From NCBI GenBank assembly GCA_019358855.1, contig JAHHII010000004.1, positions 186,001 through 250,000 on the forward strand: 64,000 bases of DNA. Reading direction: 5' to 3'. Every line of letters begins with the position of its first letter. Positions within the stretch are counted from its first letter, which is position 1. Below, piece after piece: positions 32,884-51,492 of the stretch. The translations under genes were made by a program, and so were the position numbers. The notes under the pieces were generated by a model. The model saw only the letters and a list, made by a program, of their open reading frames with translations. It was not told where the DNA came from and searched no databases. The DNA comes from Timaviella obliquedivisa GSE-PSE-MK23-08B. Lineage in GTDB: Bacteria > Cyanobacteriota > Cyanobacteriia > Elainellales > Elainellaceae.

Positions 32884-33034
32884 GAGAGTTGCATGAAAAT
32901 ACAACCCCAGTGAGATGCATTGACTTTTCAGCCCCCTAAATCCCCCATTCTGGGGGACTTCCGAACCACCTTTCAAAGTCCCCCAGAATGGGGAATTTAG
33001 GGGGCGATTCAGGGTGTTATTTAATTGCAACTCC
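32884..33034. mobile_element. 151-bp MITE with CTAA duplication
   Basis: CTAA at 32880-32883 and at 33035-33038 flank a 151-bp element. Its ends are GAGAGTTGCA on the left and the inverse GGAGTTGCA on the right. The centre is a large palindrome (CCCCCTAAATCCCCCATTCT and its inverse) like that in the MITEs at 34257 and 48407, but the ends differ. The rest of the 32739-33218 gap is the divergent promoter area of uvrA and glpX; no clear boxes apart from TTGACT at 33061-33066. Confidence 0.7.
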
Positions 33035-34256: not shown

Positions 34257-34409
34257 GAGGTTGTCTGAGAAGTCTAGGTTGCTATCCAATCCACCCCCTA
34301 AATCCCCCATTTTGGGGGACTTTGAAGAAGGACTGGCTCGGAAGTCCTGCCCCAAAATGGGGGGTTGGGGGGCGAGTGTCAGAATCTTTGATACTTCTCA
34401 GACATCCTC
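34257..34409 (+). mobile_element. 153-bp MITE (copy 1) with TAA duplication at the glpX stop codon
   Basis: The ends GAGGTTGTCTGAGAAGT and the inverse of GAGGATGTCTGAGAAGT form 17-bp terminal inverted repeats with one mismatch. TAA stands at both borders (34254-34256 and 34410-34412); the left one is the glpX stop. The core has CCCCCTAAATCCCCCATTTT with a long inverted partner. Nearly the same sequence lies inverted at 48407-48561. TNA-type 3-bp duplications are known for part of the IS5 family; no transposase is encoded. Confidence 0.9.
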
Positions 34410-41865: not shown

Positions 41866-41908
41866 ATCAGATTTACTAGAGTGATGAGTGTTGTTCTAGT
41901 GATCTGAT
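41866..41908 (-). terminator. Stem-loop over the stop of the hybrid kinase gene
   Basis: ATCAGATTTACTAGA (41866-41880) pairs with TTCTAGTGATCTGAT (41894-41908), with one mismatch and one bulge and a 13-base loop. It includes the TAG stop at 41896-41898. No U-tract follows on the minus strand, so termination is a guess. The rest of the glgC/hybrid-kinase gap shows nothing. Confidence 0.4.
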
Positions 41909-44900
41909 TTCATTTTTACAGAGGGATCAGGATGGACAGAGAAGGTGAGGACAGTCTCGTCAACGCCTTTTAGTTGCAGCGGGCTGAACTTGGTAATGGT
42001 GTCTTCTTCTAGTTCTAAGTAATCTGCGACAGCCGCGGAAACGAGGATAGAGCTAGGTTCGGCAGCTTCTTGAATCCGGGCGGCAATGTTGACGCTAGGA
42101 CCGATCGCCGTATAGTCCGATCGCACCGGACCGCCAAACATGCCTACAACAGCAGTGCCCTGATGAATGCCGCAGCGAAACTGCACCCTAGGGATGCCTT
42201 GAGCTTCCCACCGATCGTTGAGAGCCGCGAGGGAGCGATACATTTGGCGGGCAGCGGCGATCGCGCGTTTCACCTGCTCGTTAGGGCTAAGTTCTTCGGG
42301 GGCACCAAAAATTGCCAGAATTGCATCTCCCATAAACTTGTCTACTGTGCCGCCATTCTCAAAAATAGCGTGGGTCATTTCGGTCAAATATTCGTTGAGT
42401 AGTTCGGCAACCCGGCGCGATCGCAAATTGTTCGAGAGCTGCGTAAACCCAATAATGTCGCTAAACAAAATAGTAATCATCCGCGGTTCTGGACGTAAAT
42501 CCAACGTCAGGTTGCCCTCAGCCGCTTTCTTCACTAACGATGGCGGCAAGAAGCGCCCTAAAACCGATTCGGTCAGGTAGGTATTCAACGCAGCGACCCG
42601 TTGCTCGTTTTCTTTGAGGGCAAGCAGGTTGCGCACCTCTGCCACTAGCTCCCGGTTATTAAAAGGCTTTGACAGGTAAGCATCTGCTCCTTTTTCGGCT
42701 CCTTCTAGTCGCGTGTCTTCATCCGCTTTAGCCGTTAACAGAATGATTGGAGTTCCTCTTAACGCCTCGTCTTGACGAATCATGCCGATCATTTCTAGCC
42801 CAGATACCATTGGCATCATCAGATCAGTAATGATGAGGTTAGGGCGATGGGATTGGACAACCTGGAAACCCTCAGCGCCATTCCGAGCAGTCAAAATCCG
42901 ATGTCCCATCTGTTGCAGCACACCAGAAACATAGTTCCGCATATCGGCATTGTCTTCTACCACCAAAATTGTGGCGGTTTTTGCCAGTTCTGCCTCACCT
43001 GGCGCAGTGGGCAACGGGGAAGTTGGGGCGACTGCCAAAGCAGAGGGCAGCGGATTTTCGGTTTGTTGATGTGGGTCAGTGTCTACATCTGCCAGTTCAA
43101 CCTGTGCCCGACTTTGTTCAATCTCTACTGGAATCTCAATGATCTGAGCCGTTGGTAAGTGAGTCGTCCCTGTTTGTAACCACACAGAAAAGCTCGTACC
43201 TTCGCCGTAAATTGATTCAACCGTAACTTGCCCACTATGCATTTCCACCAATTCTTTCACTAGAGACAGCCCTAAGCCGCTGCCTTCATGGCTGCGACTT
43301 GCTGAGCCGTCGGCTTGGCGAAAGCGATCGAACAAATGAGGAATTTGGTCAGGACGAATGCCAATGCCCGTATCTTTAACCTGCATTAAGCAATGATCGC
43401 CCTCCTGCCTGAGGATGATCTCAATTTTGCCGCCTGCTTCGGTAAACTTAATGGCATTGGATAGCAAGTTGTAGAGAACTTTATCAAATTTTTCTAGATC
43501 TAAATAAACTGCTGGACATTCTTCTAAATGAGGCAATAGGCGGATTTGCTTCTTTTCGCAGTAGGAGGCGAAGGAGCCGACCACTTGGTTGACAAACTCC
43601 AAGAGATTGCAAGGACGGAACTTGGGCTGCATCAGTCCTGCATCTAGGCGCTGCAAATCGAGCAGTTGGTTAACCAAGCGGAGTAAGCGGCGGGAGTTAC
43701 GAAGGGCAATGACAGACTGGTCGTAGGAAAGTCCTTCTTCTTGGGCAACCGCAGATTCTAGAGGCCCAATTGTTAACGTTAAGGGTGTGCGGAACTCGTG
43801 GGAGACGTTTTGAAAAAACTCGGTTTTTTGTTTGTCGAGTTCAAGCAATTGCTCTGCCTGCTGCCGCATGGTTTGGTACAGCCGAGACTGCTGCACGGCG
43901 ATCGCTGCTTGAGCGGCTACAGCCTGAGCCAGACCTATTTCAGCCGTTTCCCAGCGCCGAGGCTGGCGAGTTTGGCGCAAGGAAATGCTGCCAATGATCT
44001 TGCCATCGTATAGCAGGGGCACGACTAAGAGGGCACGAGCAGGCGATCGGAGCAGCATATCAGTCACATTCAGTTCTAACTGATCGCTCACATCATCAAT
44101 CACGACTGGAGCCTGCGTCTCCAGTAATTGCTTCAGAACAGGATTTCCCTCAATAGGAGCTTTAGACTGCGGTAACAGTGGCTGTTGCTCTTCGTTGGCA
44201 TCATGTAAACCCACGCACTGGACAAACTCATCTTCTTCAGTCCACAAAGACAAAGCACAGCCATCGGCATGAAGCGCTTGCCCAAGCTGCTGAGTAATAG
44301 CAGCAAAAATTTCCTGAGGATCGAGGCTAGAGCGAATCGCCGCCGTAATGGTGTTAACTAATGCCTCTCGTTTCGCCAAAGCTCGGACTTGCTCATAGGC
44401 TCTTGCCTGAGACAAAGCCAGGGCAGCTTGATCTGCCACCATCCTAATCAGCTGAACTTCGTCGTCTTCCCAGGTGCGCGGCTTACCGCATTGGTGCAAC
44501 GCCAGAACTGCCATCAAATCTTGCTGAAGGACAAGGGGGACAATCAAGCTAGAGACGATTCCAGCCGCCTGGTATGCCTGCCGACGGAGATCTTTTACAT
44601 CTCCCTGGATTCGTTCGTCAGTTTGAGCCTCATTAATGACCTGAACTTGACGGGTTTCCCAAAGGGTATGCGCCAGGCTGCTGGAGCTACCATCCATTCG
44701 TGACAAAGAGATTTCTGAAGTCGCTTGTCCTGCACCAGGAGCCGGAATCGTGTAGACAAACCACTCGTCTTCTAAGTGTCCGTTTTGAAAAGGACGGAGA
44801 AGGCAGCAGTCTACCTCAAACATGTGCCCGACTGTCTCCACAATGGTTTGGAGAATTTCTTGGTAACTGAGGGCACTGCGAATGGTGTTGGTGACTGCAT

Positions 44901-45345
44901 TGAGCAACGACTCTTGCCGCAGCGTGCGCTGAAGCTCTTGAGTACGGGCTTTGAGAATGCTATGGGTATCTGCGGCTTGGCGCACCACGACTTTGAGTTC
45001 GTCGTCGTCCCACGGCTTAGTAACATATTTGAAGACTTTGCCAGAGTTAATGGCTTCTACCAAATCGCCCACGTCGGTATAACCCGTGAGAATGATTCGA
45101 ATCGTATCGGGATATTGGGTTGCCGTCAGACCCAAAAACTCCGTGCCGCTCATGAGCGGCATTCGTTGGTCTGAAATGATGACAGCGACCTCGCCCTGGC
45201 GATCGAGAATCTCTAGGGCAGCCGGGCCGCTTTCTGCTTTCAGCACCTTGAACTCGCGGTGAAAGATGCGATAAAGCAGATCTAGGTTATCCGGTTCGTC
45301 ATCAACAACAAGGATCGTGAACTTGGTTTTAGTCTTTACATTCAT
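41896..45345 (-). CDS. Hybrid signalling protein: REC-GAF-GAF-histidine kinase-REC-adenylate cyclase
   Basis: 1149 residues from the ATG at 45345 (MNVKTKTKFTILVVDDEPDN); in-frame ATG 45357 is also possible. Order: REC1 (~8-125; ISDQRMPLMSG), GAF1 and GAF2 (~150-490), HisKA (NVSHEFRTPLTLTIGPLESA), HATPase (VLYNLLSNAIKFTEAGGKIE; GSGLGLSLVKELVEMHSGQV), REC2 (LVVEDNADMRNYVSGVLQQM; IITDLMMPMVSG) and a class III cyclase (ILFSDIIGFTQLSNNLRSRR; TVDKFMGDAILAIFGAPEEL). The two metal-binding Asp, the Lys of VDKF and the Asp of VRSDYTAIG fit an adenylate rather than guanylate cyclase. Both receivers keep their phospho-acceptor Asp. It has no TM helix. Confidence 0.93.
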   Translation of the reverse strand: MNVKTKTKFTILVVDDEPDNLDLLYRIFHREFKVLKAESGPAALEILDRQGEVAVIISDQRMPLMSGTEFLGLTATQYPDTIRIILTGYTDVGDLVEAINSGKVFKYVTKPWDDDELKVVVRQAADTHSILKARTQELQRTLRQESLLNAVTNTIRSALSYQEILQTIVETVGHMFEVDCCLLRPFQNGHLEDEWFVYTIPAPGAGQATSEISLSRMDGSSSSLAHTLWETRQVQVINEAQTDERIQGDVKDLRRQAYQAAGIVSSLIVPLVLQQDLMAVLALHQCGKPRTWEDDEVQLIRMVADQAALALSQARAYEQVRALAKREALVNTITAAIRSSLDPQEIFAAITQQLGQALHADGCALSLWTEEDEFVQCVGLHDANEEQQPLLPQSKAPIEGNPVLKQLLETQAPVVIDDVSDQLELNVTDMLLRSPARALLVVPLLYDGKIIGSISLRQTRQPRRWETAEIGLAQAVAAQAAIAVQQSRLYQTMRQQAEQLLELDKQKTEFFQNVSHEFRTPLTLTIGPLESAVAQEEGLSYDQSVIALRNSRRLLRLVNQLLDLQRLDAGLMQPKFRPCNLLEFVNQVVGSFASYCEKKQIRLLPHLEECPAVYLDLEKFDKVLYNLLSNAIKFTEAGGKIEIILRQEGDHCLMQVKDTGIGIRPDQIPHLFDRFRQADGSASRSHEGSGLGLSLVKELVEMHSGQVTVESIYGEGTSFSVWLQTGTTHLPTAQIIEIPVEIEQSRAQVELADVDTDPHQQTENPLPSALAVAPTSPLPTAPGEAELAKTATILVVEDNADMRNYVSGVLQQMGHRILTARNGAEGFQVVQSHRPNLIITDLMMPMVSGLEMIGMIRQDEALRGTPIILLTAKADEDTRLEGAEKGADAYLSKPFNNRELVAEVRNLLALKENEQRVAALNTYLTESVLGRFLPPSLVKKAAEGNLTLDLRPEPRMITILFSDIIGFTQLSNNLRSRRVAELLNEYLTEMTHAIFENGGTVDKFMGDAILAIFGAPEELSPNEQVKRAIAAARQMYRSLAALNDRWEAQGIPRVQFRCGIHQGTAVVGMFGGPVRSDYTAIGPSVNIAARIQEAAEPSSILVSAAVADYLELEEDTITKFSPLQLKGVDETVLTFSVHPDPSVKMKSDH

Positions 45346-45563
45346 AGCTTTCAGCATTGATCTCGGAGAGATGCCTGCATAAAGAGTTCCCAATTCTGGA
45401 AGAGCATAACCTTGAGAAAAGTAAAAGAAGGCAAAGAAATTTGATGCTTTTTGTTTTTTCCTTAACGAATCAGTAGCGAGTTCTCAGGAATTCCTTTGAT
45501 CGAGTCGTAAAAGCTAGGTCGAAAATGCCAGACTAAAATAGAGGCATTCCATTTCATTCAGCC

Positions 45564-48365: not shown

Positions 48366-48406
48366 AGGAAAATTTAAGAAGGAATTGAAGTGAGAAGACA
48401 GTCTTA

Positions 48407-48561
48407 GAGGATGTCTGAGAAGTATCAAAGATTCTTACACTCGCCCCCCAAATCCCCCATTTTGGGGCAGGGACTTCCGAGCCACTCCTTCTTCAAAGTC
48501 CCCCAAAATGGGGGATTTAGGGGGCGGATTGGATAGCAACCTAGACTTCTCAGACAACCTC
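48407..48561 (-). mobile_element. 155-bp MITE (copy 2) with TTA duplication
   Basis: This is the inverted counterpart of the element at 34257-34409: same ends (GAGGATGTCTGAGAAGT on the left, inverse of GAGGTTGTCTGAGAAGT on the right) and the same palindromic core. TTA flanks it at 48404-48406 and 48562-48564. It lies between the divergent DUF92 and phytochrome-kinase genes, 41 bases from the DUF92 start. Confidence 0.9.
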
Positions 48562-48711
48562 TTAGTGATTTTCGCATAAGTGCTGAGAAGCGTCACACCA
48601 TCTAGGAAACTATTGGCACTATCAAAAATCAAAGAAATGTTTAAGAAATTGTAGTGATGCTACAGCAATGGGAAACCTACCAGAGAAGACCGAACTTAGC
48701 GATGCCTGCCC

Positions 48712-51492
48712 ATGACTCCCTTAACAGCCGCAGAGAAGAACCATTTTGCCAAGGAAAGTAGCCTTCTCCGTCGAATTAATCAACAAATTCGCCGATCAAT
48801 AGAGCTTAAAGATATTTTGAGCACTACAACAAACGAGGTGCGAGCATTTTTAGGGAGCGATCGCGTCAAAATCTATCAGTTTCACGCAGACAGTAGTGGT
48901 GAAGTGGTCGCTGAATCCATCCATAACCATCGGCTGCCGCCGTTGATGGGGCTAAGTTTTCCAGCCGATGATATTCCTGCCCAAGCACGACAGCTTTTTG
49001 TAGAAATTCAAGCGCGGGTCATGGTAGATGTCGCTAATCGACTCGTTGGACAAAGTTTTTGCCGCAATCTAGAAACCGGAGAACAGATTGCCGAGGAGGT
49101 TCGCTATCGACCCATCGATCCTTGTCATGCCGAGTATTTAACGGCGATGGGGGTTAAGTCTTCGATGACGCTGCCCATTCTTTATCACGATCAATTATGG
49201 GGATTGCTAGTTGCGCATCATTCAGAACCGCAAGAAATCTCAATGGACGACTTACAGGCAGTGCAAGGAGTAGTGGATCAAATTTCTGTCGCGATCGCTC
49301 AGTCTACGCTGCTTGCCCAAGCCCACGATCGTGCCGAGCGAGAAGCACAGCTTAATCACATTACCAACCTACTTCACTCCCGCTCCACCATAGAACTACA
49401 GGCGGCTTTAGAAACAGCCGTGACGACCTTTAAAGGTTCTGGCGGCAGGCTCTGCATCAAATCTGAATCGTTTAACAACAAAGGAAACGATGCGTCTCTC
49501 AGCTTTGCGAACTGTACAGAGGCAAACTGTTGTGCCATTCAGCTTTACCTGGATGGTAAACAGCCCCTCATGCCTGAACTAGCGATGTACCCTTTAATGG
49601 AGCAGTACTCGGTTTGGCAAGAGTACTTTCAAGCCCATAAGTTTCAGCCGTGGGCAATTTCAGATATTTACAACACGCCGCCGCTCCGGAACCTCCAACC
49701 CGCCTTCCGCGCCACAAAAATCCGGGGGATGTTGGTGGTACCTCTCCAGTACCGTCAACGCACCTTGGGTTACTTGAGCATTTTTCGAGATGAGTTTGCT
49801 ACTGAAACGCTTTGGGCAGGACAGTTTGACCCAGATCAGCGACAGCTTTATCCCCGGCAATCCTTTGAACTTTGGCGCGATACCCGTAAAGCCCAGTCTT
49901 GTGAGTGGACGGCGCAGGAAATCAAACTAGGGCGTACCCTGGGCATTCACTTTGCCACAGCAATTCAACAGTCAGAAACCCATCAACAACTTCAAATTCT
50001 TAATGACAATTTAGAACATCTCAATGCGGGATTAGAGCAAAAAATATTTGAGCAAACTTCGGCACTCTGGCAGACTCATGAGCTACAGCAGATTTTGTTT
50101 CAGGTTGTTGTTAAAATGCGGAACTCGCTTGACCTGGACACGATTTTTAAGACCACGGCTCAGGAAGTGAGGCGATCGCTCAAGGTCGATCGGGTTGGTA
50201 TATATCGGTTTACACCTGGCTCAGCCTGCTATGAAGGAGAGTTCGTCTCAGAAGATTGCTTACCTAAAGTTCTTTCTAATTTAGGTAAGAAAATCTATGA
50301 CCACCACTTTCAAAAAGAATATGCAACTTCTTACCATCAAGGACGGATGCAGGTTCTTAATGATATCCGCACGTCCGGTTTACAGCAGTGCCATATAGAG
50401 TTGCTCGAAGGTTTACAGGTTAGGGCACAAATTGTTGTCCCTCTGGTGCGGCAAGAAGAGCTATGGGGACTTTTATGCATTCATCAATGCACCCAGCCTC
50501 GGGAATGGGAGCGTTCGGAAATTCAGTTTATTACCCAAATTGCCGCCCAGCTTGACGTGGCGATCCAGCAAGCCGAGTTACTTGCCCGAACTCAACAGCA
50601 ATCCCATCAGCTTGCAGAAACTCTGGCTAATCTTCAAGAAACGCAACTCCAGCTCGTGCAAACCGAAAAAATGTCTAGTTTGGGGCATTTAGTTGCAGGC
50701 ATTGCCCATGAAATCAACAATCCGATCAACTTTATCCATGGCAATGTTCATCATATTAATCACTATATTGAGGACATTCTAAATCTGCTGGATCTTTACC
50801 AGAAGCACTATGCTGATCCTCCAGCAGAAATTTATAACCGAGAGCAAGAACTAGACCTTAACTTCTTACGAGCAGACTTCCCAAAAATTCTTACGTCAAT
50901 GAAGATAGGAACTGAGCGGATTCGTCAGATTGTCCTGTCTCTCAGAAATTTCTCGCGTCTTGACCAAGCCGACATGAAGCAGGTCGATATTCATGAAGGC
51001 ATTGATAGCACCCTTTTAATTCTGCAACATCGCTTGAAAACTCAATCTATTAATGAGATCGAACTGATTAGAGAGTATGGTGATTTGCCGTTGGTGGAAT
51101 GTTATGCCGGACAGGTCAATCAGGTGTTAATGAATTTGTTGAGTAATGCGATCGATGCCCTTGAAGAAAGCCCAGATTTTCTATCTGTTAATGCTGATGA
51201 GGATAGCCATGAGGTGATGATACGCCCCAGAATCCATATCCGGACTGAGGTTCTAGAAAATCAGCGGGTGGCAATTCGGATTGCTGACAATGGCAAGGGT
51301 ATTCCCGAAAAAGCTCGAAACAATCTGTTTGATCCTTTCTTTACAACTAAGCCTGTCGGGAAGGGAACTGGGCTAGGGTTATCAATTAGTTACCAAATTA
51401 TTGCAGATAAACATCAAGGTAGCCTTAAATATTTCTCGGCTCTAGGGAAAGGGACAGAATTTGTCATAGAACTACCCATTCGACAATCCTGA
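48712..51492 (+). CDS. Knotless phytochrome histidine kinase (GAF-PHY-GAF-HisKA-HATPase)
   Basis: 926 residues, no PAS or knot at the N-terminus. GAF1 (~35-190) has the phytochrome motif FPADDIPAQARQLF and a bilin-attachment-type DPCHAEYLTAMGVKSSM (Cys138-His139). The second domain (~215-420) looks like PHY: a tongue with LWAGQFDPDQRQLYPRQSFE contains the WxG and PRxSF motifs. A third GAF (~465-620) has QQCHIELLEGLQVRAQIVVP (Cys560-His561), as in cyanobacteriochromes. HisKA has AGIAHEINNPINFIHG (His666), and the HATPase has NQVLMNLLSNAIDA, DNGKGIPEKA and GTGLGLSISYQI. Bilin binding at either GAF is inferred. Confidence 0.85.
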   Translation: MTPLTAAEKNHFAKESSLLRRINQQIRRSIELKDILSTTTNEVRAFLGSDRVKIYQFHADSSGEVVAESIHNHRLPPLMGLSFPADDIPAQARQLFVEIQARVMVDVANRLVGQSFCRNLETGEQIAEEVRYRPIDPCHAEYLTAMGVKSSMTLPILYHDQLWGLLVAHHSEPQEISMDDLQAVQGVVDQISVAIAQSTLLAQAHDRAEREAQLNHITNLLHSRSTIELQAALETAVTTFKGSGGRLCIKSESFNNKGNDASLSFANCTEANCCAIQLYLDGKQPLMPELAMYPLMEQYSVWQEYFQAHKFQPWAISDIYNTPPLRNLQPAFRATKIRGMLVVPLQYRQRTLGYLSIFRDEFATETLWAGQFDPDQRQLYPRQSFELWRDTRKAQSCEWTAQEIKLGRTLGIHFATAIQQSETHQQLQILNDNLEHLNAGLEQKIFEQTSALWQTHELQQILFQVVVKMRNSLDLDTIFKTTAQEVRRSLKVDRVGIYRFTPGSACYEGEFVSEDCLPKVLSNLGKKIYDHHFQKEYATSYHQGRMQVLNDIRTSGLQQCHIELLEGLQVRAQIVVPLVRQEELWGLLCIHQCTQPREWERSEIQFITQIAAQLDVAIQQAELLARTQQQSHQLAETLANLQETQLQLVQTEKMSSLGHLVAGIAHEINNPINFIHGNVHHINHYIEDILNLLDLYQKHYADPPAEIYNREQELDLNFLRADFPKILTSMKIGTERIRQIVLSLRNFSRLDQADMKQVDIHEGIDSTLLILQHRLKTQSINEIELIREYGDLPLVECYAGQVNQVLMNLLSNAIDALEESPDFLSVNADEDSHEVMIRPRIHIRTEVLENQRVAIRIADNGKGIPEKARNNLFDPFFTTKPVGKGTGLGLSISYQIIADKHQGSLKYFSALGKGTEFVIELPIRQS

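Follow-up and report, generated by a model that had tools for sequence, protein, structure and literature searches.

A predicted two-sensor All2699-type phytochrome kinase of Timaviella obliquedivisa with a third GAF domain from a different cyanobacteriochrome group

What kind of photoreceptor is encoded by a 926-residue reading frame of Timaviella obliquedivisa GSE-PSE-MK23-08B in which two GAF domains each carry a Cys-His pair, and is it unusual for one histidine kinase to hold two such sites? The gene lies in a 64,000-nucleotide stretch of DNA, the whole of which we call the window. Its product is composed of GAF1, a PHY-like domain, GAF3, and a histidine kinase part (Table 1). In the 926-residue protein, Pfam reports GAF in two stretches (3.8e-48), PHY at residues 317–421 (5.5e-12; 45.8 bits vs a cut-off of 27), and HATPase_c at residues 801–924 (3.2e-23). 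Neither a PAS family nor HisKA is reported at E ≤ 0.001, and the latter result counts against the kinase reading. A motif scan located DIP at residue 87, CH at 138, WAG at 368, PRQSF at 381, CH at 560, and HEINN at 666. The full-length AlphaFold model, calculated from a nine-row alignment, has a mean pLDDT of 52.8 and a pTM of 0.31, with most of the PHY region below 50, and is too poor to support structural claims. We consider the protein, with a probability of roughly 0.8, to be a group II (knotless) phytochrome histidine kinase of the All2699 type that carries a cyanobacteriochrome-type domain as its second sensor.

Table 1 Features of the predicted two-sensor kinase gene, in positions of the window. 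Row counts refer to aligned full-length proteins among the matches listed.
Feature	Position	Strand	Evidence
Whole gene, GAF1-PHY-GAF3-histidine kinase, 926 aa, ATG start	48712..51492	+	ORF list; Pfam; 88% full-length orthologue L001
GAF1, residues about 16–200, predicted red/far-red bilin pocket	48757..49311	+	Pfam GAF; 6oza/6ozb match at 12–203
DIP motif, residues 87–89	48970..48978	+	motif scan; 43/43 rows
Cys138-His139, predicted GAF1 bilin attachment	49123..49128	+	motif scan; 43/43 rows
PHY-like domain, residues about 201–445	49312..50046	+	Pfam PHY 317–421; 4bwi, 8w26
Tongue motifs WAG (368–370), PRQSF (381–385), WRD (388–390)	49813..49881	+	motif scan; alignments
GAF3, cyanobacteriochrome-type, residues about 461–640	50092..50631	+	Pfam GAF 474–618; PDB matches
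D530-H-H-F533, DXCF position, second Cys replaced by His	50299..50310	+	alignments; DRHF in L001
Cys560-His561, predicted GAF3 bilin attachment	50389..50394	+	motif scan; Cys 42/43, His 37/43 rows
Histidine kinase part, residues about 645–924; phospho-acceptor His666, codon 50707–50709	50644..51483	+	HATPase_c 801–924; His666 43/43 rows

GAF1 is located at the N terminus, from about residue 16, without a PAS domain. It contains the DIP motif and the bilin Cys-His pair of group II phytochromes, and the tongue of the PHY-like domain contains their W(G/A)G, PRXSF, and WX(D/E) motifs. The structure of Cph2 from Synechocystis (4BWI), the group II prototype, has the same knotless GAF1-PHY module and aligns over residues 17–420 (2.5e-51). 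Residues 201–445 on their own match the PHY parts of 8w26 (4.4e-18), 4bwi (2.3e-8), and Cph1 (2vea, 1.7e-4). Therefore, the second domain, for which the earlier note had allowed the lack of a PHY fold, is PHY-type by sequence. The output differs from that of Cph2, being a histidine kinase in the Timaviella protein. In Cph2 the outputs are GGDEF/EAL, and a third GAF domain of the cyanobacteriochrome type is present as well. The earlier note had also described the protein as a knotless, PAS-less phytochrome module with WxG and PRxSF motifs in the second domain, followed by a cyanobacteriochrome-like GAF with Cys560-His561 in a histidine kinase. The structural and PHY matches, D87-I-P, Cys138-His139, and the Pfam result for PAS bear out the first part, and the motif scan, Pfam, and PDB matches of GAF3 bear out the second.

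All2699 of Nostoc sp. PCC 7120 is described as three consecutive GAF domains with a C-terminal histidine kinase, in which g1 and g3 each bind phycocyanobilin (PCB), with dark maxima at ~638 and ~645 nm, respectively (PMC6696110). The photoproducts given there absorb at ~595 nm for g3 and at ~685 nm for g1, or at 705 nm when GAF2, which carries a PHY-like tongue, is included (PMC6696110). The Timaviella protein resembles this description in its three GAF domains followed by a kinase, in the DIP motif and Cys138-His139 of GAF1 (GAF1 crystal 6OZA), in the PHY-like GAF2 with WAG, PRXSF, and WX(D/E) in its tongue, and in a predicted bilin-binding GAF3. Residues D87, C138, H139, H169, W366, P379, R380, and W386 of All2699 correspond to D87, C138, H139, H169, W368, P381, R382, and W388. 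The difference lies in GAF3, which is red/orange or red/green in All2699 by its description, and DXCF-like with the second Cys lost in the Timaviella protein. The earlier note had called it unusual for one histidine kinase to combine two bilin sites that differ in photocycle. This does not stand, and we rejected the idea of an unusual architecture, because All2699 as described has the same arrangement (PMC6696110) and full-length relatives are common. The GAF1-PHY module is most likely a red/far-red switch. Phycocyanobilin would be attached to Cys138, and GAF1 would toggle between a red-absorbing and a far-red-absorbing state. A contact of Arg382 with Asp87, as expected from the R380-D87 pair of All2699, may let the PHY tongue cap the pigment.

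Relatives were searched for at E ≤ 1e-150 in 291 sampled genomes of the phylum and 36 genomes of the order, with the Timaviella genome counted in both. Matches, some of them partial, were found in 41 of the 291 and 27 of the 36 genomes. The matches listed include 44 full-length proteins, which give 43 distinct rows after omission of L062, whose figures equal those of the nearest orthologue, L001. The GAF1-PHY-GAF3-histidine kinase order is common to these 43 rows over their full length. Among the matches listed, DIP, C138, H139, H169, W368, S384, F385, and H666 are present in every row, R382 in 40 and P381 in 38 of the 43, and the GAF1 and GAF3 cysteines occur together in 42. The conservation over 43 rows indicates that the motifs are not due to chance. 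Compared with L001, dN/dS is 0.067 for GAF1, 0.061 for PHY, 0.111 for GAF3, and 0.103 for the kinase, and the low value in each domain indicates purifying selection throughout the protein. With 82% identity to L001 vs 88–91% elsewhere, GAF3 is conserved least, which is a point against our main reading. The overall identity to Nostoc-like relatives, which share the architecture, is 53–57%. Frames of ~1100 residues in genomes of the phylum (e.g. G164:C3:2896982-2900236 and G122:C1:26944-30207) are matched by the query in two overlapping parts, 15–635 and 447–925, which suggests relatives with two cyanobacteriochrome GAF domains after the phytochrome module.

The best PDB match of GAF3 is PPHK (6oap, 2.3e-38), followed by 6bhn (2.2e-35) and AnPixJg2 (3w2z, 1.5e-32). 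GAF3 lacks the WxDxxL motif of XRG-type domains and is only 40–46% identical to the XRG-type GAF3s of Nostoc-like relatives. It also lacks the second Cys that defines the DXCF type. By our own motif rules, under which L077 (no Trp) and L060 (WNSADL) were scored as XRG, the 43 GAF3s among the matches listed comprise 19 XRG, seven DXCF, four DXCF-like without the Cys, and 13 other domains. The four DXCF-like domains, which retain the D and the F but have His or Trp instead of the Cys, belong to the Timaviella protein, L001, L063, and L068. Of the rows, L033 is closest to the crystallised All2699 GAF1 (82%), and its GAF3 is XRG-type. Domain order, motifs, the ancestry of GAF3, and purifying selection on all parts are read from the sequence itself. 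On this reading GAF3 probably descends from DXCF-like domains and has lost their second Cys, in contrast to Nostoc-like relatives, whose GAF3 is XRG-type. PPHK of Leptolyngbya sp. JSC-1 (6OAP) resembles it in missing the DXCF Cys (DQYF), but only the GAF of PPHK matches GAF3, without a match to the knotless phytochrome, and this GAF is placed elsewhere in the GAF3 tree. Stand-alone DXCF GAF-histidine kinases of the same order are ~54–59% identical to the GAF3-kinase half and match the query without the GAF1 part; unlike the Timaviella GAF3, they keep the DxCF Cys in 15 of 16 aligned proteins.

The second Cys of DXCF domains is described as having a role in the isomerisation of PCB to phycoviolobilin (PVB) and in the C10 bond that gives blue-absorbing states, and the DXCF domain AM1_6305g1 as isomerising without it (PMC11284453). 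Table 1 of PMC11480761 lists the Pg state of PPHK at 562 nm. As the second Cys is a His, a blue adduct formed via the DXCF position should be impossible, and since PPHK also lacks this Cys, a single-Cys green-to-red photocycle would be expected. GAF3 is thus most likely a single-Cys sensor of the green-to-red range, although the sequence does not fix its colours. The pigment is expected to be PCB or PVB, between which the sequence cannot tell. It would be bound to Cys560, with His532 in place of the second Cys and no reversible C10-Cys adduct at that position. The further GAF3 cysteines 506, 516, 589, and 593 could react with bilin and count against the single-Cys reading. If the reversible second Cys had moved, with Cys516 as the best candidate, a blue-shifted state would still be reached; Cys506 and Cys516 also occur in L001, and PPHK has a Cys aligned with 516. 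This is unlikely, as two other proteins that lost the DXCF Cys have none there (L063, EDVLP; L068, EDVVP), so that compensation is not general; on the same two sequences we rejected a general rule that proteins without the DXCF Cys have gained one at 516. That GAF3 is decaying or light-insensitive and retained only for dimer geometry would fit the lost Cys and the fact that GAF3 differs more between the two close species than any other domain. We regard this as very improbable given that, among the matches listed, 42 of the 43 rows retain C560 and 37 retain H561, and that the GAF3 dN/dS of 0.11 is near that of the kinase.

The trees of GAF3 and of the remaining protein differ. The XRG set clusters in the GAF3 tree with L051 and two red/green PDB domains on one side of a branch (100/100), and the Timaviella GAF3 is not among them; the XRG-labelled GAF3s and L051 also split off, without the Timaviella GAF3, at 100/99. 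The Timaviella GAF3 groups with those of the DXCF-type L063, L064, L035, L037, and L083, a grouping whose support of 91/88 falls short of the starred level. An ordinary red/green GAF3 was rejected, as the domain lacks WxDxxL and falls outside the XRG clade. The same observations and the 40–46% identity to XRG GAF3s argue against a plain All2699 orthologue whose GAF3 would have the red/orange photocycle of All2699g3; the shared architecture and the overall identity to Nostoc-like relatives speak for one, and we hold it to be improbable. In the core tree, built from GAF1-PHY and the kinase, the sister group of the Timaviella protein plus L001 consists of three kinases of the same family that bear an XRG domain (97/92). 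In topology tests, which are weakened because the choice of groups followed inspection of the first tree, a single clade of XRG-bearing kinases was rejected in the core tree (AU p 2.9e-4), whereas their GAF3s with L051 form a clade; placement of the Timaviella GAF3 with its three XRG-bearing core neighbours was rejected (p 3.6e-6), and holding the six DXCF-like neighbourhood kinases together in the core tree was only just rejected (p 0.043). The kinase alone places the Timaviella protein with L063, L064, and L083 (96/78), not directly with the XRG three, and GAF1-PHY alone joins it to the XRG three, with support of 90/89 that does not reach the starred level. The half-length L002, L003, L004, and L028 were left out of the kinase-only, GAF1-PHY-only, and 91/88 GAF3 trees because no Cys-His GAF could be aligned in their GAF region. 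The conflict of the GAF1-PHY and kinase trees with the GAF3 trees indicates that the GAF3 slot was exchanged in the All2699-type family. Exchange within the family appears well supported by these comparisons. The changed branch near the Timaviella gene may be its own lineage or that of the XRG three, with mixed evidence. Tentatively, at odds slightly short of even, we propose that the phytochrome module and kinase are passed on as a unit, and that the third GAF is a colour slot open to exchange between XRG (red/green) and DXCF types. Here, a DXCF-type domain without the second Cys would let the kinase compare red/far-red with green-to-orange, not red/orange, light. Literature searches on exchange of the third-GAF slot, and on a knotless phytochrome and a cyanobacteriochrome in one protein, returned no papers; we do not claim absence from print.

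The kinase part has the features of a sensor histidine kinase, with His666 in the H-box HEINNP and the HATPase_c domain. Helical linkers may carry the signals of both sensors onto a single kinase dimer, on which the two inputs would be combined. The dimer would phosphorylate His666, and a response regulator from another locus would receive the signal. No response regulator gene directly adjoins the gene, which stands alone between two genes of the opposite strand. The upstream neighbour encodes a DUF92 membrane protein and the downstream one an AMP-binding enzyme, probably menE-like by its position beside a MenC-type gene. Four upstream neighbours that were tested are conserved beside the L001 orthologue (81–90%). 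The nearby gene at 41896-45393 (-) encodes a hybrid kinase-cyclase of 1165 residues with a receiver, two GAF domains, HisKA-HATPase, a second receiver, and a class III nucleotide cyclase. Nested inverted repeats lie just upstream of the phytochrome kinase gene (48403-48565), with 26-nt inner arms (48442-48467/48501-48526, 96%) and 21-nt outer arms (48403-48423/48545-48565, 90%). Further pairs of the inner arm occur at 32941-32995 and 34303-34364 (six matches vs 0.05 expected), and the element looks like a small mobile repeat.

The Timaviella genome (4.9 Mb, 29 contigs) contains four PHY-domain matches, including the phytochrome kinase gene. Two more phytochrome-like genes match GAF1-PHY over nearly the full span (C2:232889-234202, in a 701-aa frame, and C7:57413-58759, in a 926-aa frame), and a fuller PHY match is present on C15 in a 792-aa frame. 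Two full-length genes of ferredoxin-dependent bilin reductases are present; therefore, bilin should be available. A bilin reductase fragment with an internal stop codon is located at C28:322-540.

The All2699-type kinase of Timaviella, a predicted two-sensor protein, is real and well conserved, and its third GAF domain comes from a different cyanobacteriochrome group. The architecture is already established, and the gene mainly adds a well-conserved example. As a naturally occurring DXCF-like domain that lacks the second Cys, GAF3 could be used for testing phycoviolobilin formation. If the exchange is true, the family would offer naturally occurring two-sensor kinases with one colour input replaced and with the other input and the output preserved, and the rule of integration (AND, OR, or override) would be measurable across natural variants.
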